Shown here: positions 1-12,447 of the stretch, in pieces
Layout: the number at the start of each line of letters is the position of its first letter
How positions within the stretch are numbered: the stretch's first letter is position 1
Assembly: GCA_017458125.1 (NCBI GenBank)
Contig: JAFTGB010000072.1
Location: 1-64,000, forward strand
DNA: 64,000 nt
Direction: 5' to 3'
Origin: Prevotella sp.
Lineage (GTDB): Bacteria; Bacteroidota; Bacteroidia; Bacteroidales; Bacteroidaceae
Made by a program: the position numbers and the translations under genes
The notes under the pieces: model-generated
The model's database searches: none
What the model saw: only the letters and a program-made list of their open reading frames with translations
What the model was told of the DNA's origin: nothing

Positions 1-1029
1 GACCTTGACAACATCAAGGCACAGATCATCAAGCACTACCAGCACCTGTCAGACCGTGAGGCATTCGTCACGGCAGAGATGGTGCGCAATGCCTATCAGG
101 GCTTCGGCAGCGAATATGAGACCCTGCTGGGTGCTTTCGACAAGGACATTGCCAACCTGAAAAGACGTGTAGGCAAGGACAGGGCTTTGGGAACATACAA
201 ACTACAAGTAAGGTCGAGAAACTACGTAGCGGACTTTCTTCAGATGAATTTCCGTCGAACTGATATATCCATGCAGGAACTGACACCCGACTTCATCAAG
301 GAGTTTGCCGTCTATCTCAGCAATGACCGAGGTCTGGCAAGTTCCACCATCTGGCTGACGTGCATGCACCTGAAAGGAGTAATAGGCCGTGCCCATGACA
401 ACGGCAAGATACAGCGCAACGTGTTTGCGCAGTTCCATATCAGTCCCAAGTGCAAGGAGCGTACCTTTCTGACAGAGGAAGAACTGAAGGAGGTAATGGC
501 ACATGAGTTTGAGGATTCTAACCTCGCATTCGTCCGTGACCTCTTCGTTTTCATGAACTTCACCGCCCTGTCGTTTGTGGACTTGAAGGAACTGACTACG
601 GACAACATCGTGGAGGTGAACGGTGAGAAATGGATTGTCGGCAAGCGTCATAAGACGGGTGTACCTTATCAAGTGAAACTGCTGGCAGTGCCCTTGCAGA
701 TTATCGACCGCTACCGTAAGTATCCAAAAGAAAATCCCAAGTCGGTGTTTGGTGAGGTGAACTACTGGAGCGTATGCAAGAAATTGAAGCCAGTAATGAA
801 AGAGTGCGGCATTGACAAGCCAATTTCCGCACACTGCGCAAGGCATGGATTCGCCACCATGGCTTTAACCAATGGCATGCCCATAGAGAGCGTAAGCCGA
901 GTATTAGGGCACACTAACATCGTCACGACCCAGATATATGCTCGCATCACCACGCAGAAGTTAGACAATGACCTAACCATGTTGGGTAACAAGTTAAACC
1001 AGTCATTCAGTAACATCAAAAGAGCATAG
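1..1029 (+). CDS. Tyrosine recombinase (integrase), 5' end outside window
   Basis: The reading frame is open from base 1, so the N-terminus, including most of the arm-binding domain, lies upstream. A core-binding SAM-like segment (around 230-440) is followed by a catalytic domain. Visible catalytic parts are a Lys in GKRHKTG, HxxR in AHCARHG, the GH of VLGHTN, and the Tyr in TQIYARI. The usual first catalytic Arg (TGLR) is replaced: the box reads TALSFVDL, with Ser at that point, as I recall for CTnDOT-type Bacteroidetes integrases. It would integrate and excise the element that also carries the MobV relaxase downstream. The next gene starts 4 bases after its stop. Family is certain; the attachment site is not identifiable here. 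Confidence 0.93.
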   Translation, partial: DLDNIKAQIIKHYQHLSDREAFVTAEMVRNAYQGFGSEYETLLGAFDKDIANLKRRVGKDRALGTYKLQVRSRNYVADFLQMNFRRTDISMQELTPDFIKEFAVYLSNDRGLASSTIWLTCMHLKGVIGRAHDNGKIQRNVFAQFHISPKCKERTFLTEEELKEVMAHEFEDSNLAFVRDLFVFMNFTALSFVDLKELTTDNIVEVNGEKWIVGKRHKTGVPYQVKLLAVPLQIIDRYRKYPKENPKSVFGEVNYWSVCKKLKPVMKECGIDKPISAHCARHGFATMALTNGMPIESVSRVLGHTNIVTTQIYARITTQKLDNDLTMLGNKLNQSFSNIKRA

Positions 1030-1033
1030 ACGC

Positions 1034-1405
1034 ATGGAAGAAAGAAACATCATCAAGTGGAGTGAGTATAGCGGGTACACTGAACTGACTATACCGAGTG
1101 GGGAGATTTGGATGAGCGAGTCCGAGATAGTGGACTTGTTCGGAGTGTTCATCCCCAAGTTGAGAAACGCCATCAAAGCCCTCTACAAAGAGGAGTTGGT
1201 AAAGCCATACGAGGCAGAGCGAACCATCAAGAAGAGAGATAACTTGTATGTCACAGTATATAACATGGAGGTCGTTCTGCTGCTTGCCTTCCAGCTGAAC
1301 TCCTATCAGGCAAGGGCTGTCCGCAGGGAACTGATGGAACGTATCACCCGTAACCACAAACCGTTTGAGGTGATTCTGACAGCAACAACAGGAAAAGGGA
1401 ATTAG
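1034..1405 (+). CDS. Small protein of mobilizable element, possibly RhuM/KilA-like
   Basis: A 123-residue protein starting just after the integrase stop, so probably co-transcribed. The N-terminal half (residues 10-60) reads like a winged-helix or antirepressor-type segment (SESEIVDLFGV, then KLRNAIKALYKEELV). The C-terminal half carries VYNMEVVLLLAFQLNSYQA followed by RRELMERI, which resembles part of the RhuM/virulence protein family found in Bacteroidetes mobile elements. It has no signal peptide or membrane segment, so a cytoplasmic DNA-binding or regulatory role is plausible, but this is inference. The link to RhuM is by eye only. Confidence 0.6.
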   Translation: MEERNIIKWSEYSGYTELTIPSGEIWMSESEIVDLFGVFIPKLRNAIKALYKEELVKPYEAERTIKKRDNLYVTVYNMEVVLLLAFQLNSYQARAVRRELMERITRNHKPFEVILTATTGKGN

Positions 1406-1433
1406 CAACAATAGCGGCAGGAAATATAAGGAC

Positions 1434-1509
1434 GGACTTTTAGGAGGATAGATAGTGTGTTGGAACGATGGTACGCTCCAATACACAACGTCTATCCCTC
1501 CTTTAGTCC
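1434..1509 (+). other. Candidate oriT of MobV type with nick site
   Basis: An imperfect palindrome spans this stretch: the left arm (GGACT, AGGAGG, ATAGA) mirrors the right arm ending CTATCCCTCC-TTTAGTCC. Inside the left arm, 1453-1461 reads TAGTGTGTT. This matches the published MobM nick sequence of plasmid pMV158, TAGTGTG/TTA, placing the predicted nick between 1459 and 1460. It lies about 360 bases upstream of the MobV relaxase gene, in the non-coding gap 1406-1820. Sequence match is seen directly; function is inferred. Confidence 0.7.
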
Positions 1510-1647
1510 ATCCGTCCATTGCAACTTCCCTATAGTCAAAAAGAAGAAACATCGTCTCACAGAGGACGAAGCACAGGGAACGGCAATGCACGACAGGGCT
1601 GATGCTGGCGCAGGTACGGATATTTTCAAGAGACGGAAAATACCGTA

Positions 1648-1707
1648 GCCTATTAGGGGATTTTTCGAGCCGCACAAACAAGTTTGTGCTAAAAATCCCC
1701 AATAGGC
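1648..1707. repeat. Cruciform-like inverted repeat upstream of mob
   Basis: Outer arms 1648-1665 and 1691-1707 (GCCTATT-AGGGGATTTTT against its complement, one extra base on the left) enclose an inner perfect hairpin of GCACAAAC (1672-1679) with GTTTGTGC (1682-1689). It lies between the candidate nick site and the relaxase start. It may be part of the origin of transfer or a transcription attenuator for the relaxase gene. Confidence 0.6.
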
Positions 1708-1820
1708 CGAGGTGTTGCACCCCTCTGGACTCCCTGCCAAGACCGTCGGCAAGAGCCGAACACAGACAAGAACGAGAGACCAACGAAACGGAATGTCAAA
1801 CAAACAATCAAAACAAGCAA

Positions 1821-3146
1821 ATGGGATACGCAGTATTACACTTAGAGAAAGCAAAGGGAGCGGACTGCGGCATGTCTGCCCACATCGAGAGAACCATAGA
1901 GCCGAAGAACGCTGACCCAAGTCGGACACACCTCAACCGTGAACTAATCCAGTTCCCAGATGGTGTCCGTAACAGGACAGCAGCCATCCAGCACCGCCTT
2001 GACACGGCAGGGCTTAAACGCAAGATAGGCAAGAATCAGGTACAGGCTATCCGCATCGTGCTCACTGGCACCCATGCAGACATGGAGCAAATAGAGCAGA
2101 CGGGCAGACTGGATGAATGGTGCCAAGACAACATTGACTGGCTCCGCAAGACCTACGGAGCGGACAATGTGGTATCAGCCGTATTGCACATGGACGAGGA
2201 AACACCACATATCCATGCCACCATCGTCCCCATCGTACAGACGGAGCGCAAGAAGCAGAAGAAGGAACAGGCAGTCAAGAAGAGATACAGGACGAAAGCC
2301 CCTGCACCCCGTCTATGTGCTGACGAGGTGATGAGCCGTACCAACCTGATATGCTATCAAGACACATACGCTGAGCAGATGGCGGCATACGGACTACAGC
2401 GTGGCATTAAAGGCTCAGAGGCACAGCACATATCAACGCATGAATATTACCGCAGCCTCATTGCGCAGGGCGAGGACTTACAGGCAAACATCACCCAACT
2501 GCTGAAAGAACAGGAAAAGGCAAGATGGGTGATAGCCGAGGCAGAACAGGCAAAGAAAGACCTTGCCCGTATCAAGGCAGAGGCCAAGACAGAGGAACTG
2601 AAGAACTCTGCCACGAAGACTGCCACCAGCGTACTCAACGGAGTGAACTCTCTTCTTGGCGGCAACAAGGTGAACCGACTGGAGAAAGAGAATGCCCAAC
2701 TGCACAGGGAAGTGGATGAGTTAAACGATCGCATCGAAAGACTCCACACTGACATGCAGAAGATGAGGGACAACCACACAAGGGAACTCAACCGCACCAA
2801 TGAGCAGCATCAGCAGGAGGTCAGCAACTTGAAGCGTCTCTTAGACAAGGCTCATAGATGGTTTCCAAGTTTCAAGCGTTTCCTCAACATGGAGCGTGAA
2901 TGTCTGGAGTGTGGCTTCAACGCAGACCAGACCGACAAACTGCTGCATGGGCAGACCGTCAATTATAGCGGGTGGCTGCACTCCAATGAGTACAGGCGCA
3001 ATGCACTTGCCAATAACGTCACGGCACAAGTGATAGTGGATGAGAAACGTTTTCTCTTCCTGCACATAAACAACACACCCATTGCCCAATGGTTTAAAGA
3101 ACAGTTTGGAATAGGTCAAGAGCAACGAAGAAGCCTTAGGGTATAA
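1821..3146 (+). CDS. MobV-family relaxase (Pre/Mob)
   Basis: A 441-residue mobilization protein that would nick oriT and pilot the strand during conjugative mobilization of the element. The start is taken at 1821, where the protein begins MGYAVLHLEKAKG, the usual MobV N-terminus; an upstream in-frame ATG at 1602 would add 73 residues of non-conserved sequence running through the inverted repeat. The metal site H123-M-D125-E126 ... H130-I-H132 is intact. Residues from about 225 to 345 form a long coiled coil, typical of the family. The gene ends at a strong bidirectional terminator. No transfer (tra) genes are present, so it would rely on a helper conjugation machine. Confidence 0.92.
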   Translation: MGYAVLHLEKAKGADCGMSAHIERTIEPKNADPSRTHLNRELIQFPDGVRNRTAAIQHRLDTAGLKRKIGKNQVQAIRIVLTGTHADMEQIEQTGRLDEWCQDNIDWLRKTYGADNVVSAVLHMDEETPHIHATIVPIVQTERKKQKKEQAVKKRYRTKAPAPRLCADEVMSRTNLICYQDTYAEQMAAYGLQRGIKGSEAQHISTHEYYRSLIAQGEDLQANITQLLKEQEKARWVIAEAEQAKKDLARIKAEAKTEELKNSATKTATSVLNGVNSLLGGNKVNRLEKENAQLHREVDELNDRIERLHTDMQKMRDNHTRELNRTNEQHQQEVSNLKRLLDKAHRWFPSFKRFLNMERECLECGFNADQTDKLLHGQTVNYSGWLHSNEYRRNALANNVTAQVIVDEKRFLFLHINNTPIAQWFKEQFGIGQEQRRSLRV

Positions 3147-3185
3147 GAAAATGAGGTGTGTCAGTTTGAACACACCTCATTTTCT
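3146..3185. terminator. Bidirectional terminator between mob and the convergent operon
   Basis: Perfect 16-bp arms at 3146-3161 (starting AGAAAATGAGG) and 3170-3185 with an 8-base loop. The A-rich start and T-rich end let it serve both strands. It overlaps the stop codons of both convergent genes. Confidence 0.85.
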
Positions 3186-3651
3186 ATCTGTCATTCTTAG
3201 AAATTAAAGGAGTAATAAAAATGAATACTTGCAGTCCGTCCTTTCTAATAAAATTGGTCAACTGCTCCAAAGCCCTTACGTAACCTACGGAGTTTTCACG
3301 AATGTTCTCAATAATTTCTGTGTCGCTCGTACCGTCCGATTTCTCCGACGTGCGGATAATCATGTCTTGTGTGATGTTCGAGCCATTGAAGAAACGCGAA
3401 GCCTGTGCCATAGCCTTGACGGATGCCACACGGTTCAGCGCAGCCTCCGTCTTGTACCTCTCCTTGTCGAGTGCCAGCACCGAAATGAGGTAGGCGTCAT
3501 AGTAGTCATCTACAGCTCGGACGCCCTCAAACGGTGCATTATTGTACATACGAATCAAGAAATTCGTAAAAGCCACACGGTCGCTGTTGTAACTTTGGGC
3601 ATGTCCGCCCAAAGTTATTAGCAGGAATAGGGATATAACAGATAATCTCAT
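3184..3651 (-). CDS. Exported protein of unknown function, last gene of envelope operon
   Basis: A 155-residue protein with a clear signal peptide (MRLSVISLFLLITLGGHAQS, cleavage probably after HA-Q). The mature part looks largely helical, with no motif I recognise. Its start overlaps the stop of the preceding gene by four bases (ATGA), which implies translational coupling. It is the fifth and last gene of the minus-strand operon 7091-3184 and ends in the shared bidirectional terminator. Function unknown. Confidence 0.75.
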   Translation of the reverse strand: MRLSVISLFLLITLGGHAQSYNSDRVAFTNFLIRMYNNAPFEGVRAVDDYYDAYLISVLALDKERYKTEAALNRVASVKAMAQASRFFNGSNITQDMIIRTSEKSDGTSDTEIIENIRENSVGYVRALEQLTNFIRKDGLQVFIFITPLISKNDR

Positions 3652-5206: not shown

Positions 5207-6142
5207 TTACCACCAACTGTAGATAATGGTTTTGTATATCGCCTTTGGCTGGTTTTTTGCCCACGCAACGCCGATAGCCTTGACTACATCTACGATGCTA
5301 CGTTTGAACTGCTGGTTGTCTTCGTATTGTTTCATCTTGAAATCCCACTCCCGCTTGGCATCGGCCTGTAGTTTCTGCTCTACCGCCAGACGCAATGCCG
5401 ACACTTCGGCATAGTTGGTGAACTTTGGACAAATCTGGCTGATAATGTCTGCCACCTCGCTTGCTCCTTGGGCATTTTGGCTTTTCGCCCATGCGTTTCT
5501 TGCCTTCTCTAATAGAATGGTCGATTCTGAATCCATCTTCTGCTGATAGACTACTCCCGCTTGCTGTTGGCACTGTAAAAAACAATCCCTGCATACATCA
5601 GGAATGGAGGTCAGCAGAAAAATAGCCTCGTCGTATGCCTGAGTGTCTACAAGGCTCTGGGCATTCTGAATGATAGCCGGGCATTGTGAAGTATAATAAT
5701 CCATAATTTTCTCCTTGGCTTCATTGAGCATCTGCTGGATTTTCGGATTATCGCCCTTAATATTGCGGAATGCACTGATAAACGTTTTGTTCTCGTTGGT
5801 GCCAATACCTGCGGCTTGCAGGGTGACTGAGGCGTAAAGTTTGTTTTCCACCACATCGCCCACCATCAGTGTAATGTCCATCTTCTCGGAAATGCGGGCT
5901 GGTGTAGTTGGTGTGACGTCTTTCTGCGTGATGTCAACCTTGGCCGTCAGCACAAAACGCTTAGTGTAGCCATTGTCGGCATAGCCGTTGGCTGTCAGAG
6001 CGCTCTGCAACTTGGTTTCAAGATTTCGTGCCGCTTCCTCAGGTAGTTTCTCGTCAACAACTTGTGCATTGATAGATATGGTCTGTGCATAACATACAAA
6101 GTATGCAAATACAGTTATTATAAATAATGTAGTACGTTTCAT
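5207..6142 (-). CDS. Exported protein of unknown function
   Basis: A 311-residue protein with signal peptide (cleavage near CYAQ-T). Residues 20-140 look like a beta-rich domain in which VDEKLPEEAARNLETKLQSA resembles the helix that opens CsgG/TolB-like N-terminal folds. Residues 150-290 are helical, with a CxxC (CRDC near residue 185) followed by CQQQ, and TPR-like spacing. It starts one base after the stop of the DUF6175 gene, so the two are coupled. Function unknown. Confidence 0.75.
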   Translation of the reverse strand: MKRTTLFIITVFAYFVCYAQTISINAQVVDEKLPEEAARNLETKLQSALTANGYADNGYTKRFVLTAKVDITQKDVTPTTPARISEKMDITLMVGDVVENKLYASVTLQAAGIGTNENKTFISAFRNIKGDNPKIQQMLNEAKEKIMDYYTSQCPAIIQNAQSLVDTQAYDEAIFLLTSIPDVCRDCFLQCQQQAGVVYQQKMDSESTILLEKARNAWAKSQNAQGASEVADIISQICPKFTNYAEVSALRLAVEQKLQADAKREWDFKMKQYEDNQQFKRSIVDVVKAIGVAWAKNQPKAIYKTIIYSWW

Positions 6143-6143
6143 C

Positions 6144-7091
6144 CTATTTCTCTCCTAATACTAATACAGCCTCGCCGAGACCGCGAATAATGACTTTTGA
6201 TGTGATATTGTATGGCTCCTTTTGCAGGAAGTTCCGTAGTTGTGTAGCGAATGCTCGGGCATCCATCGCACGCCCCTTATCATATTGCAGCGGAATGCGT
6301 ACTTGTTCGAATTGTGCAAAGGATTCTGTACCGTCACTTAGATTAAAGGCCCCATTAACGCAGTTTTTCTGTAGCCACGACTGAATGCAGTCGGTCAGTT
6401 CCTCACCGCCGAACTCTGTTTCAAGGTCTTTGTCCCAACTATCCCAACAACGGACGGTCAGCGAAATCTCGCGGCCGTTCTTCTGTTGGTCGGCAAACCA
6501 TTCGCTCATCTGTTTGTCGAACGGCTTGATATTCTCCTTTACCGCTTTCTCTAATAACAGAGGAATGGCATCACTTGATGCTTTCGTTGTCCCTGCCGAA
6601 GTGGCAATGCGCTTGTTGGTATAGGCATCGAAGGCTTCGAGTGTGAACGATGCGGAGCGCCCTGCGCTCTCGCGGTTCAACTTCCACCATATCTGAATCA
6701 CAATGTCCGACTTCATCCGACGTTTCAGAATATCTAGTGGACTCTCCACCAGTTGCGCTCCACTGCTTTTGCTTGTGGTCACGTTGTCCTCAGCCTGTTT
6801 CACACTGAGACTCTTGATTTCCTGTTCGGCATCCTTCAGGCTGTACCCCAATGAGGTTAGCACACCGCCAACCTTGCTGATGACTTGCCCCAATTCAGTA
6901 TCCTCCTGAAATGCCTGCTGATAGTTGGGCACTTTCACGTCCGTTCCCTGATTGTTAAACGTGGTCATGAAATACCGTTGAGTACACCAGTTGTCGCTCG
7001 GCAGAATCATGATTGTCGGCTTCTTTGTCTGCCCGAAAACAGCAATCGCTGCCATTAGGACATTAATCATTAAAAACGTTTTCTTTTTCAT
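6144..7091 (-). CDS. DUF6175 family exported protein, first gene of envelope operon
   Basis: A 315-residue protein with signal peptide (MKKKTFLMINVLMAAIAVFG). The opening KKPTIMILPSDNWC and the later DVKVPNYQQAFQED and ESPLDILKRRMKSDIVIQ stretches match my memory of the Bacteroidetes DUF6175 family, which has a CsgG/TolB-like layout. Length fits the family. It leads a five-gene minus-strand operon of which four products are exported. Upstream lies a 250-base leader with a long imperfect hairpin. No function is established for the family that I know of. Confidence 0.8.
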   Translation of the reverse strand: MKKKTFLMINVLMAAIAVFGQTKKPTIMILPSDNWCTQRYFMTTFNNQGTDVKVPNYQQAFQEDTELGQVISKVGGVLTSLGYSLKDAEQEIKSLSVKQAEDNVTTSKSSGAQLVESPLDILKRRMKSDIVIQIWWKLNRESAGRSASFTLEAFDAYTNKRIATSAGTTKASSDAIPLLLEKAVKENIKPFDKQMSEWFADQQKNGREISLTVRCWDSWDKDLETEFGGEELTDCIQSWLQKNCVNGAFNLSDGTESFAQFEQVRIPLQYDKGRAMDARAFATQLRNFLQKEPYNITSKVIIRGLGEAVLVLGEK

Positions 7092-7182
7092 TCGCTCAAT
7101 TGCTTTAAGTTTGTACTATCCTTTTGGAGGCGATGACTCTACACAAACTTTGGAGCACAAAGAAAGTGCAGACCCGCCATAC

Positions 7183-7304
7183 ACCTTCTTGGCTCGCGAC
7201 AGCCACTATATCCTATGGAGAAGCCTGCACTCTATGAGTACATACTCCTATTGGATATAGTTCTTTGCCCGTATTCTCTTTTCCGAGGTCGCGATTCAGA
7301 AGGT
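7183..7304. repeat. Long imperfect hairpin in leader of the DUF6175 operon
   Basis: Outer arms 7183-7200 (ACCTTCT...CGCGAC) and 7288-7304 (GTCGCGA..AGAAGGT) pair with a few mismatches; inside, CTATATCC (7206-7213) pairs with GGATATAG (7253-7260). It lies in the 457-base gap 7092-7547, between the operon start and the AbiF RNA promoter. If the operon is transcribed from 7347-7355, this is a structured 5' leader on the minus strand. It could instead be a mobile-element end. Confidence 0.55.
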
Positions 7305-7346
7305 GAATTGAGCAAATAAAATATTGTGTCTCTTTCGAAACACGTT

Positions 7347-7355
7347 GCAAAAATA
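7347..7355 (-). promoter_or_regulatory. Possible -7 element for the envelope operon
   Basis: Read on the minus strand the site is TATTTTTGC, a full match to the Bacteroidetes -7 consensus TAnnTTTGC. No convincing TTTG -33 element lies 19-20 bases upstream, so support is moderate. It would give a leader of about 250 nt. Confidence 0.4.
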
Positions 7356-7406
7356 CAATAAAATTACAATATTTGGTATTATTTCTTCAAAAAACTAATA
7401 GAAATC

Positions 7407-7438
7407 TTGCATAATTCAGGAAAAAACATTATTTTTGC
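7407..7438 (+). promoter_or_regulatory. Promoter of the AbiF-associated RNA
   Basis: TTGC at 7407-7410, 19 bases, then TATTTTTGC at 7430-7438. This fits the Bacteroidetes -33/-7 promoter. The predicted start is about 7443-7446, immediately before the structured RNA. Confidence 0.75.
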
Positions 7439-7443
7439 AGGCG

Positions 7444-7535
7444 AAATGAAGAAGATTCTCGGATAAGACAGTCCGAATCAAACGATAACAGAACCCGTCG
7501 GCATCCCGTAGATCTGCTGGCGGGTCACCTTTTTT
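7444..7535 (+). ncRNA. Candidate antitoxin ncRNA of an AbiF-type HEPN system
   Basis: An approximately 90-nt transcript is predicted between a good promoter and an intrinsic terminator, ending 13 bases before the HEPN gene. It has an internal stem (GATT..CGGA, 7454-7463, with TCCGAATC, 7472-7479), an unpaired A-rich linker (7480-7492), then an 11-bp terminal stem (7493-7503 with 7515-7525) with two G-U pairs, and six T. There is no open reading frame of note. Recent work, as I recall it, describes AbiF toxins paired with a conserved ncRNA, and this arrangement fits. The RNA and its role are inferred; the layout is seen. Confidence 0.7.
7493..7535 (+). terminator. Intrinsic terminator of the AbiF-associated RNA
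   Basis: Stem ACCCGTCGGCA (7493-7503) with TGCTGGCGGGT (7515-7525), loop of 11, then T6 at 7530-7535. It sits between the RNA and the HEPN gene, so the toxin would depend on read-through, as in type III toxin-antitoxin loci. Confidence 0.75.
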
Positions 7536-7547
7536 ATATAGACGACA

Positions 7548-8471
7548 ATGAGCAATCAGAAGCCACGAACGATAGATGAACAAATCCGCCTACTCCGTTC
7601 AAGGGGTATGGCGTTTGACAATGAAGAGGAAGCCAAGCTGTGTCTAGCACACATCAGTTACTTCCGTTTGAAATACTATTGGACGGATATGCGAGACGAG
7701 GAAACAGAGCACGACTTTAAGGAAGGTGCTTTGTTTGACAATGTGATTGCCCGATACAACTTTGACCGCACTCTTCGGCTGATACTCTTTGATGCCATCG
7801 AGATTATAGAGGTGGCACTACGGGCTAAGATTATCAACCATCTTTCACAGGCAAAGTATAGCGGACTTTGGTACTTAGATGCTTCTCTCTTTGAACGTTC
7901 AGACTATTATGAGGATTTTGTGCTTGACCTCAAATATGAATTTGACCGTAGCACTGAGCCATTTGCCAAAGAATATATTGCAAAACACTCCAATTGGGAT
8001 TGGGAGTCAATGAATGGTGATAACCCTGATGCATGGATGATACTCGAAAGCGCAACCTTTGGTACACTCTCGAAGATGTATAAGAACTTGAAGAGCCAGT
8101 TACCTGAACGTGCTGCCATCGCCAACGACTTCGGACTGTATTCAGCAAAGGAGTTATCTAGTTGGCTGGAGGCCATTTCAGTGCTCCGCAATATCATTGC
8201 CCACCACTCACGCCTCTGGAACAGAAGCCTTGCCAAACAAGTGACCAATCCCAAAGGGCATCGTGACAAATGGTTGCAGAATCCTTTGACAGACAATCAG
8301 AAGAAGAAACCATACGGAGTTATTTCTGCCATGCTCTATCTCTGTAATGCCGTGTATCCTGACAACAAGATAAAGGAGAAACTGCTTGCCTTGATTGACA
8401 ACAACACAAGCATACCTTATTACAAATACGGATTCACGGGAGACTGGCGAAAGGAACCGATATGGCGGTAA
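7548..8471 (+). CDS. Abi_2/AbiF-type HEPN ribonuclease (abortive infection)
   Basis: A 307-residue Abi_2 (AbiD/AbiF) family protein, a predicted HEPN RNase that would act against cellular or phage RNA on infection. The N-terminus has the family opening (TIDEQIRLLRSRGM, then HISYFRLKYYW). The HEPN motif RX4H is intact as R214-N-I-I-A-H219, followed by HHSRLWN, typical of the family. RYNFDRTLRLILFDAIEIIEVALR (residues 70-93) is the other conserved block. Length is usual for the family. It follows a separate small structured RNA with promoter and terminator, and sits on the mobile accessory region. No antitoxin protein gene is adjacent. Confidence 0.9.
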   Translation: MSNQKPRTIDEQIRLLRSRGMAFDNEEEAKLCLAHISYFRLKYYWTDMRDEETEHDFKEGALFDNVIARYNFDRTLRLILFDAIEIIEVALRAKIINHLSQAKYSGLWYLDASLFERSDYYEDFVLDLKYEFDRSTEPFAKEYIAKHSNWDWESMNGDNPDAWMILESATFGTLSKMYKNLKSQLPERAAIANDFGLYSAKELSSWLEAISVLRNIIAHHSRLWNRSLAKQVTNPKGHRDKWLQNPLTDNQKKKPYGVISAMLYLCNAVYPDNKIKEKLLALIDNNTSIPYYKYGFTGDWRKEPIWR

Positions 8472-8495
8472 GCCCCGTAAATTGTATGTATAAGA

Positions 8496-8528
8496 TTTGG
8501 CGGTTTCAAATAAAAGTATTACCTTTGC
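8496..8528 (+). promoter_or_regulatory. Strong Bacteroidetes promoter downstream of abiF
   Basis: TTTG at 8496-8499, 20 bases, TACCTTTGC at 8520-8528. Both elements match consensus with ideal spacing. The start would be near 8531, at a structured region and 245 bases before the next gene. Confidence 0.8.
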
Positions 8529-8530
8529 CC

Positions 8531-8692
8531 CCGACAAAGAGCCATTGAAACAGGCTGGTGGCTCTGAGTCGGGAGTTCTTTGATAAGCAAATCGCGGCAG
8601 AATGAGGAAATGAGAACCGTTGCCAGTTCGTAACCCTAATTTTTCTCAATCCTTGGAACTGCCTTTATTTACAAAAGGTTTGCGATTTTATC
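8531..8692 (+). ncRNA. Candidate structured RNA between abiF and the methyltransferase
   Basis: After the promoter, a hairpin (CCCGAC 8530-8535 with GTCGGG 8568-8573; AGAGCCA 8538-8544 with TGGCTCT 8559-8565) is followed by nested stems: GATA and AAATCGC (8582-8595) with GCGATTT and TATC (8682-8692), GGCAG (8596-8600) with CTGCC (8659-8663), TGAGAA (8611-8616) with TTCTCA (8643-8648). No coding frame is evident. It could be an independent sRNA or a long leader. It fills most of the 303-base gap 8472-8774. No known class recognised. Confidence 0.5.
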
Positions 8693-8743
8693 CAAAGTTA
8701 CGAAATAAATATGAAATATAAGCGGTGTATTAAGAATTATTTG

Positions 8744-8752
8744 TATCTTTGC
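8744..8752 (+). promoter_or_regulatory. -7 element for the RNA methyltransferase gene
   Basis: TATCTTTGC, a full consensus match, 22 bases before the start codon at 8775. No clear -33 box at the expected place. Confidence 0.55.
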
Positions 8753-8774
8753 ACCACATTTACGCTTTTACATC

Positions 8775-10271
8775 ATGACACAACAATTTGAAATGATCGC
8801 CAAGACCTTTATGGGCCTGGAACCCGTTTTGGCGAAAGAACTGGCGCAGTTGGGCGCAGAGAACGTACAGACAGGACGCCGCATGGTGTCGTTCACAGGA
8901 GACAAAGAGATGATGTATCGCGCTAATTTCCAACTGCATACTGCCATCCGCATTCTGAAACCCATCAAACGCTTCAAGGCATTGTCGGCTGACGACGTCT
9001 ACGAGGGCATCAAAGCCGTCGACTGGTCGGAATACCTGACACTGGACAAGACCTTCGCCGTCGACTCCGTGGTGTTCAGCGACGAGTTCCGACACTCGAA
9101 GTTCGTGGCCTACAAGGTGAAGGATGCCATCGTCGACCAGTTCCGCGAGAAGACGGGCAAGCGGCCCAACATCAGCGTCACCAGCCCCGACATGCGGCTG
9201 CACATCCACATTGCCGACGTGGCACCGGGGAAGAGCGAGTGCACGCTGTGTCTCGACTCTACCGGCGAGAGCCTGCACCGCCGTGGCTACCGGCAGGAGT
9301 CGGTGGAGGCACCGCTCAACGAGGTGCTGGCAGCCGGCATGATTCTGATGACGGGATGGCAGGGCGAATGCGACTTCATCGACCCCATGTGCGGTAGCGG
9401 CACGCTGCTCATCGAGGCGGCACTCATTGCCCGCAACATGGCCCCGGGACTCTTCCGCAAGGAGTTCGCCTTCGAGAAATGGCCCGACTTCGACGCCGAC
9501 CTCTTCGACGAGATATACAACGACGACTCCAAGGAGCGGGAGTTCCACCACCACATCTACGGTTACGATGTCGATATCAAGGCGGTCAACACGGCACGCC
9601 TGAACGCCAAGGCTGCAGGACTGACCAAATACATCAGCGTGGCCGAGCAGGACTTCAAGGACTTCCAGCAGCCTAAAGAGAAGAGCATCATGGTGACCAA
9701 CCCGCCCTACGGCGAACGCATATCGACACCCGACCTCTTAGGCACATACAAGATGATTGGCGAGAGGCTGAAGCACCAGTTTACGGGCAACGACGCCTGG
9801 GTGCTCTCCTACCGCGAGGAGTGCTTCGAGCAGATTGGCCTGAAGCCCAGCATCAAGATTCCGCTCTACAACGGCAGCTTAGAGTGCGAGTTCCGCAAGT
9901 ACCAGATGTTCGACGGCAGGATGAGCGACTTCCGCTCTGAGGGCGGCATCGTCAAGACCGACGAAGAGAAGCGCCAGATGGCTGAAAAGCACCGTTTCCG
10001 CAAGGAGCGTGAGTTTAAGAAACGCCTGAGCGAGCAAGAGGAAAACGAGGATGGCGACATCCGCTCGTTTAAGTTCCACACCATGGAGGAACGCAAGCCT
10101 GGAAACGCCAGAAAGTCCGGTTTTTCCGGAAAGCCCGGAAAGTCTGGAAAGTTTGGGCAACATTCCGGATATTCCGGAAAACCAGGAAAGCCCCACAAAC
10201 CCTACGACCGCCGCTCCCCCCGCGATTTCGGCAAAAAAAACAACAGACGATTTGACGACGATGAAGATTAA
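8775..10271 (+). CDS. THUMP-domain class I RNA methyltransferase (RlmL/YpsC-like)
   Basis: A 498-residue S-adenosylmethionine-dependent RNA methyltransferase, probably for N2-guanosine in 23S rRNA as in the RlmL N-terminal half. Residues 1-60 are the ferredoxin-like and 60-160 the THUMP domain. Motif I reads DPMCGSGTLLIEAAL (around 199-213) and motif IV NPPYGER (around 315), the N6/N2 amino-methylase signature. It lacks the second RlmK-like domain of E. coli RlmL. The last 60 residues are a basic Gly/Lys/Ser-rich low-complexity tail with repeated SGKPGK units ending in an acidic DDDED, probably RNA-binding. It overlaps the next gene by 11 bases. The first gene with the high-GC composition of the core genome. 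Confidence 0.88.
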   Translation: MTQQFEMIAKTFMGLEPVLAKELAQLGAENVQTGRRMVSFTGDKEMMYRANFQLHTAIRILKPIKRFKALSADDVYEGIKAVDWSEYLTLDKTFAVDSVVFSDEFRHSKFVAYKVKDAIVDQFREKTGKRPNISVTSPDMRLHIHIADVAPGKSECTLCLDSTGESLHRRGYRQESVEAPLNEVLAAGMILMTGWQGECDFIDPMCGSGTLLIEAALIARNMAPGLFRKEFAFEKWPDFDADLFDEIYNDDSKEREFHHHIYGYDVDIKAVNTARLNAKAAGLTKYISVAEQDFKDFQQPKEKSIMVTNPPYGERISTPDLLGTYKMIGERLKHQFTGNDAWVLSYREECFEQIGLKPSIKIPLYNGSLECEFRKYQMFDGRMSDFRSEGGIVKTDEEKRQMAEKHRFRKEREFKKRLSEQEENEDGDIRSFKFHTMEERKPGNARKSGFSGKPGKSGKFGQHSGYSGKPGKPHKPYDRRSPRDFGKKNNRRFDDDED

Positions 10272-12447
10272 AACCCTGTTTCTGCTGCTCATCCTATCGC
10301 TCCCCGCTATGGCGCAAGACAAACTATTCACGCTGGAAGACCTGAACTTCGGCGGAAACAACTACCGTAACCTGCAGCCCAAGAACATGTGGCTGACGTG
10401 GTGGGGCGACCAGTTGGTGCGTACCGACGTGGAGGACTGCTTCCTCGTTGACAAGAAAACAGGGAAAGAGAAGCCGCTCTTCACCCTCGACGACATCAAC
10501 CAGTGGACCGGCGGTGACGACAACCGGCATGTGTCCGCCCTCTATGCGGCAACGTTCCCCTACCCTGACGAGCCAGTAGTGGCACTGAAGGGCAAGAAGG
10601 CATTCATGCTGATTGACTGGAAGAAGCACCAGGTGGTTTGGCAGGACAGCACCGCCACGCCGACGGCCAACGACTGGTGCCCGGCATCGAAGGCTACGGC
10701 CTACGTGAAAGACCAACAGCTCTTCGTGGCCGACGCACAGGGACAGCAGCACCAGCTGACCACCGACGGCTCACGCGACGTGGTGTACGCCTCGGCCGTG
10801 CACCGCAACGAGTTCGGCATCATGAAAGGCACCTTCTGGAGCCCTGACGGCCAGCAGTTAGCCTTCTACCGCATGGACCAGTCAATGGTCACCGACTACC
10901 CACAGGTCGACATCTTCCAGCGCAGTGCCACCTACGAGCCGGACAAATACCCCATGGCCGGCATGACGTCGCACCAGGTCACCGTAGGCGTCTACGACCT
11001 CCGCACACGCCGCACGGTGTACCTCAAGACACCCGCCGCAGTGTCCGACGCTTCTCCGTCGGACACCCCCGTCTACTTCACCAACATAGCCTGGGCGCCC
11101 GACGGCAAGACCATCTACATGCAGGAGCTGAACCGCGACCAGAACGACTGCCGACTGGTCAGCTACGACGCCACGACGGGCGAACGCCTGGCTGAACTGT
11201 GCCGCGAGACCAGCACCAAATACGTGGAGCCACTGAACCCCATCCTGTTCCTGCCGTGGGACAGCAGCAAGTTCATCATGCAGAGCCAGCGCGACGGCTA
11301 CAACCACCTCTACCTGTACCATAAGGATGGACGCCTCGTCCGCCAGCTCACCAGCGGCCCGTGGGTGGTGCAGGAGGTGCTGGGCTTCAACGTCAAGCAG
11401 AAGAGCATCGTCATCGCAGCCAACAAATACCACCCACTGCACCGCTGGCTATACAGCGTCAGCATAGCCAGCGGCAAAATGACGGAGCTGGTCAGCGCCG
11501 ACGGCGTGCACCGCGGCGAGCTGTCGGCTTCAGGCACATACCTCTATGACAAATGGAACAACCCCACCATGCCCCGCTGCATCGACGTGGTGAATATCTC
11601 AAAACTTAAAACTCAAGACACAAAACCCCAAGCCTGTCGCCTGCTGACCGCCGAAGACCCGTGGAAGGACTACAGCCAGCCCATCTTCGAGTGCGGCACC
11701 ATCAAGGCCGCCGACGGCGTGACCGACCTGTACTACCGCATGGTGAAGCCACACGACTTCGACCCCGACAAGAGCTACCCCACCGTCATCTACGTCTACG
11801 GCGGACCGCACGCCCACAACGTGGAGGCGTCGTGGCACTGGTACAGCCGCTCGTGGGAGACGTACATGGCACAGAAGGGCTACATCGTCTTCATCCTCGA
11901 CAACCGCGGTTCCGAAAACCGCGGCCGCGACTTCGAGCAGGTCACCTTCCGACAGTTGGGACAGGTGGAGATGCTGGACCAGATGAAAGGTGTGGACTTC
12001 CTGCGCTCGCTGCCCTACGTCGACATGCAGCGCTTAGGCGTACACGGCTGGTCGTTCGGCGGCTTCATGACCATCACACTCATGCTCAACCACCCCGACG
12101 TTTTCAAGGTGGGGGTGGCCGGAGGGCCTGTCATCGACTGGAAATGGTACGAGGTGATGTACGGCGAGCGATACATGGACACCCCGCAGCAGAACCCTGA
12201 AGGCTACGCCAAGACGAGCCTCATCAGCAAGGCCAGCAACCTGAAGGGCCGTCTGCAGATTATCACGGGCTATAACGACAACACCGTCGTGCCCCAGCAC
12301 TGCCTGTCGTTCCTCGATGCCTGCATCAAGGCCGGCACCCAGCCCGACTTCTTCGCCTACCCCGGCGAGGAGCACAACATGCGCGGCCACGCCAGCGTCC
12401 ACCTGCATGAGCGCATCACCCAATACTTCGAGGACTACCTGAGATAG
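10261..12447 (+). CDS. Dipeptidyl peptidase IV, S9B family
   Basis: A 728-residue secreted or periplasmic serine peptidase removing N-terminal dipeptides. The start is ATG 10261, overlapping the previous stop, because it gives a signal peptide (MKIKTLFLLLILSLPAMAQ). Residues 40-470 form the beta-propeller and the C-terminal 250 the alpha/beta hydrolase. The triad is visible: Ser598 in GWSFGG, Asp673 in GYNDN, His705 in EEHNMRGH. An odd point is an AT-rich, repeat-like stretch at 11592-11635 encoding SKLKTQDTKPQ in an otherwise GC-rich gene. Coupled to the methyltransferase by overlap only; no functional link known. Confidence 0.95.
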   Translation: MKIKTLFLLLILSLPAMAQDKLFTLEDLNFGGNNYRNLQPKNMWLTWWGDQLVRTDVEDCFLVDKKTGKEKPLFTLDDINQWTGGDDNRHVSALYAATFPYPDEPVVALKGKKAFMLIDWKKHQVVWQDSTATPTANDWCPASKATAYVKDQQLFVADAQGQQHQLTTDGSRDVVYASAVHRNEFGIMKGTFWSPDGQQLAFYRMDQSMVTDYPQVDIFQRSATYEPDKYPMAGMTSHQVTVGVYDLRTRRTVYLKTPAAVSDASPSDTPVYFTNIAWAPDGKTIYMQELNRDQNDCRLVSYDATTGERLAELCRETSTKYVEPLNPILFLPWDSSKFIMQSQRDGYNHLYLYHKDGRLVRQLTSGPWVVQEVLGFNVKQKSIVIAANKYHPLHRWLYSVSIASGKMTELVSADGVHRGELSASGTYLYDKWNNPTMPRCIDVVNISKLKTQDTKPQACRLLTAEDPWKDYSQPIFECGTIKAADGVTDLYYRMVKPHDFDPDKSYPTVIYVYGGPHAHNVEASWHWYSRSWETYMAQKGYIVFILDNRGSENRGRDFEQVTFRQLGQVEMLDQMKGVDFLRSLPYVDMQRLGVHGWSFGGFMTITLMLNHPDVFKVGVAGGPVIDWKWYEVMYGERYMDTPQQNPEGYAKTSLISKASNLKGRLQIITGYNDNTVVPQHCLSFLDACIKAGTQPDFFAYPGEEHNMRGHASVHLHERITQYFEDYLR

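Follow-up and report, generated by a model that had tools for sequence, protein, structure and literature searches.

A long, bulge-less RNA directly upstream of an AbiF-family HEPN gene in a Prevotella-type bacterium

Known AbiF units and the locus studied here

AbiF-RNA units are already known, and one of them comes from a Prevotellaceae bacterium: PbAbiF with its noncoding RNA (ncRNA) AbiFr is the reference structure (PDB 8VZ6; Zilberzwige-Tal et al., as described in PMC12737573 and PMC12373285). PbAbiF is inhibited by C32 and U38 in a bulge of AbiFr, and Cas13 is described as descending from AbiF, the change from antitoxin to guide RNA being listed as an open question (PMC12737573). For the RCd22-abiF unit of C. 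difficile, read-through has been shown and the leader also represses in cis (PMC12373285). Here, we analyzed a stretch of 64,000 nucleotides (the window) from contig JAFTGB010000072.1 of a gut or rumen Prevotella-type bacterium (assembly GCA_017458125.1), in which an ncRNA gene lies directly 5' of an AbiF-family gene. The order of promoter, structured RNA, terminator, and toxin is that of C. difficile AbiF/RCd22, and ToxIN and the classical type III systems likewise run from RNA antitoxin through terminator to toxin but have another toxin and complex and tandem RNA repeats (PMC12373285). Positions 7440-7547 of the window hold no direct repeat of at least 10 nucleotides, and the layout, judged by sequence and comparison, is of the AbiF type (type III-like). 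An earlier reading made from the sequence alone (the sequence-only reading) had counted it as novel that few such units are described in gut Bacteroidales, a claim to novelty that the Prevotellaceae origin of the reference structure does not support.

We read this locus as a type III-like toxin-antitoxin unit, and probably a phage-defense module, with a probability of about 80%; the partnership of RNA and toxin appears well supported. This reading is built on the anatomy of the locus, on conservation, covariation, and co-occurrence among homologs, and on the predicted fold and active-site motif of the protein. The unit represents a variant of an established kind, the AbiF RNA toxin-antitoxin, rather than a kind of its own. 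What is new, as judged by comparison, is its RNA, which is without the internal bulge of the Rfam family RF03085 (abiF), has a 5' hairpin as well as a linker whose AUAAC is invariant, and is tied to one toxin clade. Direct inspection confirmed the layout of RNA gene and abiF gene that had been proposed, with the following features.

7407..7437, plus strand: Bacteroidota-type promoter, TTG at 7407-7409, spacer of 20 bases, TATTTTTG at 7430-7437; the motif recurs upstream of homologs
7446..7535, plus strand: AbiF-associated ncRNA, long bulge-less form; covariance-model match of 104.8 bits, the window sequence itself being part of the model's alignment
7454..7479, plus strand: 5' hairpin, GAU-(UC)-UCGGAU / GUCCGA-AUC, with a 2-nucleotide bulge on the 5' side, from per-region fold and comparison
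7480..7491, plus strand: linker AAACGAUAACAG, its AUAAC invariant in a 29-sequence alignment
7493..7525, plus strand: 3' hairpin ACCCGUCGGC-loop-GCUGGCGGGU, loop AUCCCGUAGAUCU; corresponds to the RF03085 motif but has no internal bulge
7526..7535, plus strand: CACC and U6 tract (U6 at 7530-7535), predicted to form an intrinsic terminator together with the 3' hairpin
7548..8471, plus strand: abiF gene for an Abi_2/AbiD/F HEPN ribonuclease (RNase)-type toxin, 307 residues, R214/H219

The abiF gene starts with ATG at 7548 and encodes 307 residues in 7548-8468, followed by the stop codon. Its product belongs to Abi_2 (PF07751, E 1.1e-52, 179.5 bits; curated cut-off, 25.6) and matches the PADLOC profile AbiD (E 2.9e-66). 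As the sequence-only reading had held, the protein is full length and its HEPN R-phi-x3-H motif is intact (R214-N-I-I-A-H219); the R, N, and H are invariant across 22 aligned rows, the window toxin among them. The predicted structure, a monomer model, has the AbiF fold.

The ~90-nucleotide RNA with two stems that had been proposed was borne out when fold energies were compared with 200 dinucleotide shuffles per region. Significant folds were obtained for 7440-7539 (z -3.27, 0/200 shuffles as low), for the RNA itself at 7446-7535 (z -2.72, 5/200), and for the 3' part at 7490-7540 (z -2.93, 0/200). The 5' part at 7440-7500 was not significant alone (z -1.20, 24/200), so the 5' hairpin rests on comparison and not on the window fold; it was seen in the fold of a 38-nucleotide region, and the whole-RNA fold kept its inner helix 7459-7476 only. 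In the whole-RNA minimum-energy fold, a purine-rich leader (7446-7454) pairs with the U tract (7529-7537). Such leaders are frequent in relatives, and the pairing might control termination or protect the 3' end.

A scan for sigma-70 promoters performed at chance level (2 found versus 1.2 expected), and this promoter type was dropped. TTG at 7407 and TATTTTTG at 7430, separated by 20 bases, fit the Bacteroidota promoter consensus. TTG-N19/20-TANNTTTG was found upstream of 54/61 homologs versus 36/2139 control windows, the latter being random positions not restricted to intergenic DNA. On the plus strand the motif, at spacings of 19-21, occurs at 7407 and next only at 8497, and the U tract and the ATG are just 12 bases apart; a second promoter of this type for abiF is therefore absent. 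Thus, the promoter assigned to the RNA by the sequence-only reading stands as a motif but is probably not the RNA's own, being shared with the toxin gene. Since the 3' hairpin is followed directly by CACC-U6, it is probably the terminator itself, and the terminator scan returned a shorter stem, 7511-7526, at the same site. The intrinsic terminator claimed before abiF is thus retained as a prediction, but not as an element apart from the second stem. RCd22 differs in having two RF03085 motifs and a separate terminator (PMC12373285), compared with the different 5' hairpin of the window and its single 3' hairpin that probably doubles as terminator. The toxin would then probably be made by read-through past the RNA terminator.

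Conservation, covariation, and co-occurrence

To compare the locus, we drew protein relatives from 60 genomes, from genome_contigs (49 loci), and from 398 genomes of the genus. Across nine relatives of 74-94% protein identity (L032, L036, L041, L043, L047, L049, L050, L052, and L054), the linker and 3' hairpin (47 bases) showed 0-2 differences; in the same relatives, 26-64% of fourfold codon positions and 30-53% of upstream DNA positions differed. More distant relatives had 7/47 (L069), 5/47 (L056), and 8/46 (L055) differences in this segment, the fourfold count of L056 (5/7) being out of register and not used. AUAAC and positions of the 3' loop were invariant in the 29-row alignment.

The 5' hairpin occurs at the same place in relatives with unrelated stem letters. 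Per-sequence folds reached p <= 0.05 against mononucleotide shuffles in 35 of 58 distinct regions, a set in which two regions (in L062 and L056) are off target and three carry an insertion. Swapping arms between lineages weakened the 5' hairpin from -9.25 to -5.48 kcal/mol (n=16) and the 3' hairpin from -18.4 to -13.2 kcal/mol (n=13), each with a permutation p of 5e-5, in sequences picked for divergence that include some close kin. Three alternative cut points for the 5' hairpin gave p values of 5e-5, 5e-5, and 0.005. A sequence's own arm was its single best partner in only 5/16 (5' hairpin) and 7/13 (3' hairpin) cases. RNAalifold recovered the 3' hairpin from a MAFFT alignment but not the 5' hairpin; MAFFT misaligns the 5' arms. 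The upstream comparison of homologs that had been suggested as a check therefore found both stems conserved and covarying, besides the recurrent promoter motif. Three loci (L048, L116, and L145) carry an insertion of ~65 nucleotides that separates the 5' hairpin from the linker and looks palindromic in part; the toxin of L048 is intact despite it, so RNA spacing seems flexible. In L002/L053, evidently one locus, the toxin has a stop at codon 69, the 5' hairpin is broken, and the 3' hairpin is intact.

This pattern of variation bears on whether the RNA might act as a guide, leading AbiF to a target RNA in the manner of Cas13. The linker and 3' loop are nearly invariant, the varying parts are the leader, the small loop of the 5' hairpin, and the letters of the stems, and the RNA has no spacer-like variable segment. 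Positions 5500-10500 hold no CRISPR-like array, and direct repeats of at least 18 nucleotides there comprise only overlapping low-complexity copies at 10116-10190, in the methyltransferase gene, and one two-copy family. With variable spacer and array both absent, we dropped the guide-RNA reading and CRISPR-Cas13 membership as highly improbable.

Among the 398 genomes, all 28 intact toxins listed for the window's clade (at least 47% identity) had the RNA directly upstream. Two further matches were a toxin without N-terminus and without RNA (G104) and a fragment at a contig edge (G163). Co-occurrence, homolog conservation, and covariation together back the proposed partnership, and by these comparisons the locus is a structured RNA and an AbiF HEPN protein forming one unit.

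A bulge-less RNA family and its toxin clade

RF03085 is a 37-nucleotide hairpin with a 6-nucleotide internal bulge. Like the window RNA, it lies upstream of Abi_2 genes and has a similar apical loop, but the window RNA is bulge-less, as is the clade RNA in every RNA-bearing row (read by eye). Even with the threshold set at E 10, RF03085 failed to match the window RNA (7300-7700), and at E 1 it matched the core of 0/9 clade loci. The suspicion of the sequence-only reading that the exact RNA may be new was right insofar as this subclass has no RF03085 match. No bulge-less AbiF RNA appeared among the titles and abstract openings listed in searches of the open-licence literature. Other Rfam families in 7300-7700 at E 10 were only ROSE_3 (E 0.37) and CRISPR-DR21 (E 4), both on the minus strand and dropped as far under their cut-offs.

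A 60-toxin tree placed every row with bulge-less RNA (41 rows) and L058 in one 42-row clade (support 100/100, branch 1.17), and the 15 bulged-RNA rows fell outside it, as did L020 and L021; RNA types were assigned by eye. The tree left out rows outside 270-400 residues and 22 named rows, mostly near copies but including L062, which has lost both RNA and start codon, and L063, which has no upstream DNA. The active site reads RN-x-[IV]-AH in the clade versus RN-x-[CL]-[ACG]-H in bulged rows. Within the clade, five nested rows retain a 3' hairpin of the bulge-less form and have no 5' hairpin, which was therefore probably lost there.

We considered whether this is an ordinary abiF RNA, overlooked by the Rfam model and acting by the same mechanism. 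Its position is the same, and its 5' ACAGAA leader and apical loop resemble those of bulged AbiF RNAs. Of four bulged loci tested, two (L008 and L010) likewise escaped RF03085, so that lack of a match alone is weak evidence. Furthermore, the clade covariance model scored bulged RNAs weakly (L010, 22.5 bits; L008, 13.2 bits) and gave the short RNA of Chryseobacterium L182 (43.5% identity) 35.5 bits, so that the RNA forms grade into each other. Since RF03085 reached none of the nine clade cores, and the bulge is absent throughout the RNA-bearing rows of a clade with its own active-site variant, we regard this explanation as unlikely.

PbAbiF shares 29% identity with the window toxin (site RNSCCH versus RNIIAH) and groups in the tree with the bulged-RNA toxins L016/L017, the window toxin lying elsewhere. 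We infer that C32 and U38 fall in the CAAAUGU bulge of the L016/L017 RNA, numbering from one base before CCAG. This bulge is absent from the window RNA, so another part of the RNA must block the toxin site, most plausibly the invariant linker. In the mechanism that we propose, one promoter would serve the unit, most transcripts would end at the RNA's own 3' hairpin, and occasional read-through would yield AbiF mRNA, a mode proposed from the present analysis. By analogy with PbAbiF and C. difficile AbiF/RCd22, from which we carry over binding, inhibition, and toxicity, the ~90-nucleotide RNA would bind the AbiF dimer and block the HEPN active site, an excess of RNA holding the toxin silent. Loss of RNA supply, through phage takeover or element loss, would free the RNase and stop growth. 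The clade 3' hairpin would act as protein-binding element and terminator, and inhibition would probably be exerted by the invariant linker and 5' hairpin, a role proposed only from the present analysis, and not by a PbAbiF-type internal bulge.

At E 1, RF03085 matched 9/40 genomes, 6 above cut-off, among them the window's own genome at three other places. Further matches were to phage phiC2 of C. difficile (37.6 bits), to a plasmid of Bacteroides (40.1 bits), and, at 32 bits and below the cut-off of 37, to two alphaproteobacterial plasmids. In L059, an RF03085-like hairpin at 2869-2906 (32.8 bits; cut-off, 37) precedes a long bulge-less RNA, and L060 and L131 likewise have two motifs in one leader; such a double leader could silence two toxin classes. 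Phage (67) and plasmid (400) records contained no relatives at 60% identity or more, only below, and in viral_contigs 5 stretches fit a pattern, none of them being a relative.

RNAs without a toxin and the genomic surroundings

The RNA covariance model located at least 64 places in 61 genomes, and dropping 7 below 40 bits left 57 confident copies: 28 with an intact toxin, 5 with a broken one, 22 with no clade toxin or a remnant, and 2 at a contig edge. Copies may have been missed, as 10 RNA candidates per genome were scored and the toxin search covered at most 5 per genome. Seven of the 22 (L091, L094, L096, L102, L105, L112, and L116) consist of the RNA, ~13 first abiF codons, and a common deletion junction; G261 and G140:C76 lie near contig ends and were counted as toxin-less because the junction is visible. 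In this set, G232 has an intact bulged-type AbiF farther along, the RNAs of G105, G068, and G075 are decayed by eye, and those of G084 and G340 are divergent. A toxin search at E 1e-10 found no AbiF match in G106, G159, G261, G098, and G242 (G106, G159, and G098 being 66-88% complete). In the L091 genome, a KilA-N gene (PF04383; PADLOC PDC-S22) is convergent with the toxin-less RNA.

These copies also bear on whether the RNA is only a cis-acting attenuator or leader that limits abiF by termination without binding the toxin. The 3' hairpin is terminator-like and very close to the ATG, the C. difficile leader also represses in cis (PMC12373285), and in ten comparisons among the five closest toxin-less copies, RNA (2-7/91 differences) and DNA behind it (2-10/125) changed at similar rates. 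A plain terminator, though, needs no near-invariant apical loop, invariant AUAAC, or covarying 5' hairpin. Moreover, the more diverged L112 differed from other toxin-less copies by 3-7/91 in the RNA and 20-26/125 in the DNA behind: 3/91 versus 21/125 for L091 (p 0.002), 3/91 versus 20/125 for L096 (p 0.003), and 7/91 versus 26/125 for L105 (p 0.012), these being three of five such pairs, which are not independent. L116, with an insertion in the 5' part, had 0-1/46 differences in the core versus 19-27/125 in the DNA behind. We therefore judge a purely cis-acting RNA to be quite improbable. The comparisons suggest that the RNA is under selection without its toxin, for example because it protects against AbiF of outside origin; intact loci could also have produced the pattern through gene conversion.

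Several observations weigh against a toxin-antitoxin unit for defense. A scan of seven neighbors yielded no convincing defense gene; the relaxase weakly matched LmuB and the RlmL-like methyltransferase matched mad2 (E 1.2e-12), which we read as general similarity. With target size taken into account, toxin-less RNAs are not significantly overrepresented (P about 0.08-0.13). Zero RNA-first losses would have that probability from target size alone, and we therefore rejected the asymmetry of decay as a proof that the two parts act as toxin and antitoxin. L058 retains an intact toxin frame despite loss of its promoter and of the RNA's 5' part. Among toxins that fall outside the clade, L021 (304 residues, RNICAH) has a promoter 18 nucleotides before the ATG and no RNA, and L020 has a leader of a different kind, so an RNA is not universal among Abi_2 proteins. 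Finally, the missing match to RF03085, the motif of the C. difficile system, means that the mechanism is carried over a structural difference.

Within the toxin-antitoxin reading, we tentatively suggest, as a possibility that we hold to be less probable than its contrary, that the clade has a second way to silence a Cas13-ancestor HEPN RNase. In place of the PbAbiFr bulge, which would have disappeared, the clade would use an invariant single-stranded linker with the 5' hairpin as its anchor, the binding hairpin would serve as terminator, and free-standing RNA copies, selected after toxin loss, would give immunity in trans (anti-addiction) against incoming AbiF modules. The toxin-less RNAs make such a role directly testable. 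A whole toxin clade whose RNA is without the known inhibitory bulge and has a second hairpin is a natural comparison for the role required of the RNA, and the bulge-less family is a candidate addition to Rfam.

An integrase gene (PF00589) and a Mob_Pre relaxase gene (PF01076) at 79-3143 form a mobilizable element next to the locus; between this element and abiF lies a block of minus-strand genes, of which a DUF6175 gene adjoins abiF, and the RlmL-like methyltransferase gene lies downstream at 8775. Several AbiF units in differing states of decay are present in the same genome. A decayed paralog at C77:52532-53209 (L024/L176; 92% identity over residues 82-307) has lost the 5' part of its RNA, and its toxin has an internal deletion and a frame change near codon 13. 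The three RF03085 RNAs are at C25:74355-74391 (58.5 bits), with no AbiF on C25 among the matches listed, at C19:22666-22702 (58.1 bits), beside a 122-residue frame that is AbiF-like by eye, and at C56:60912-60978 (38.1 bits), preceding a full toxin. Elsewhere, a DUF805b RNA (RF02914, 33.2 bits; cut-off, 35.6) lies near the AbiF locus of L066 (343-383, minus strand), and on the Chryseobacterium plasmid L182 a second, shorter Abi_2 gene (2844-3521) follows the first.
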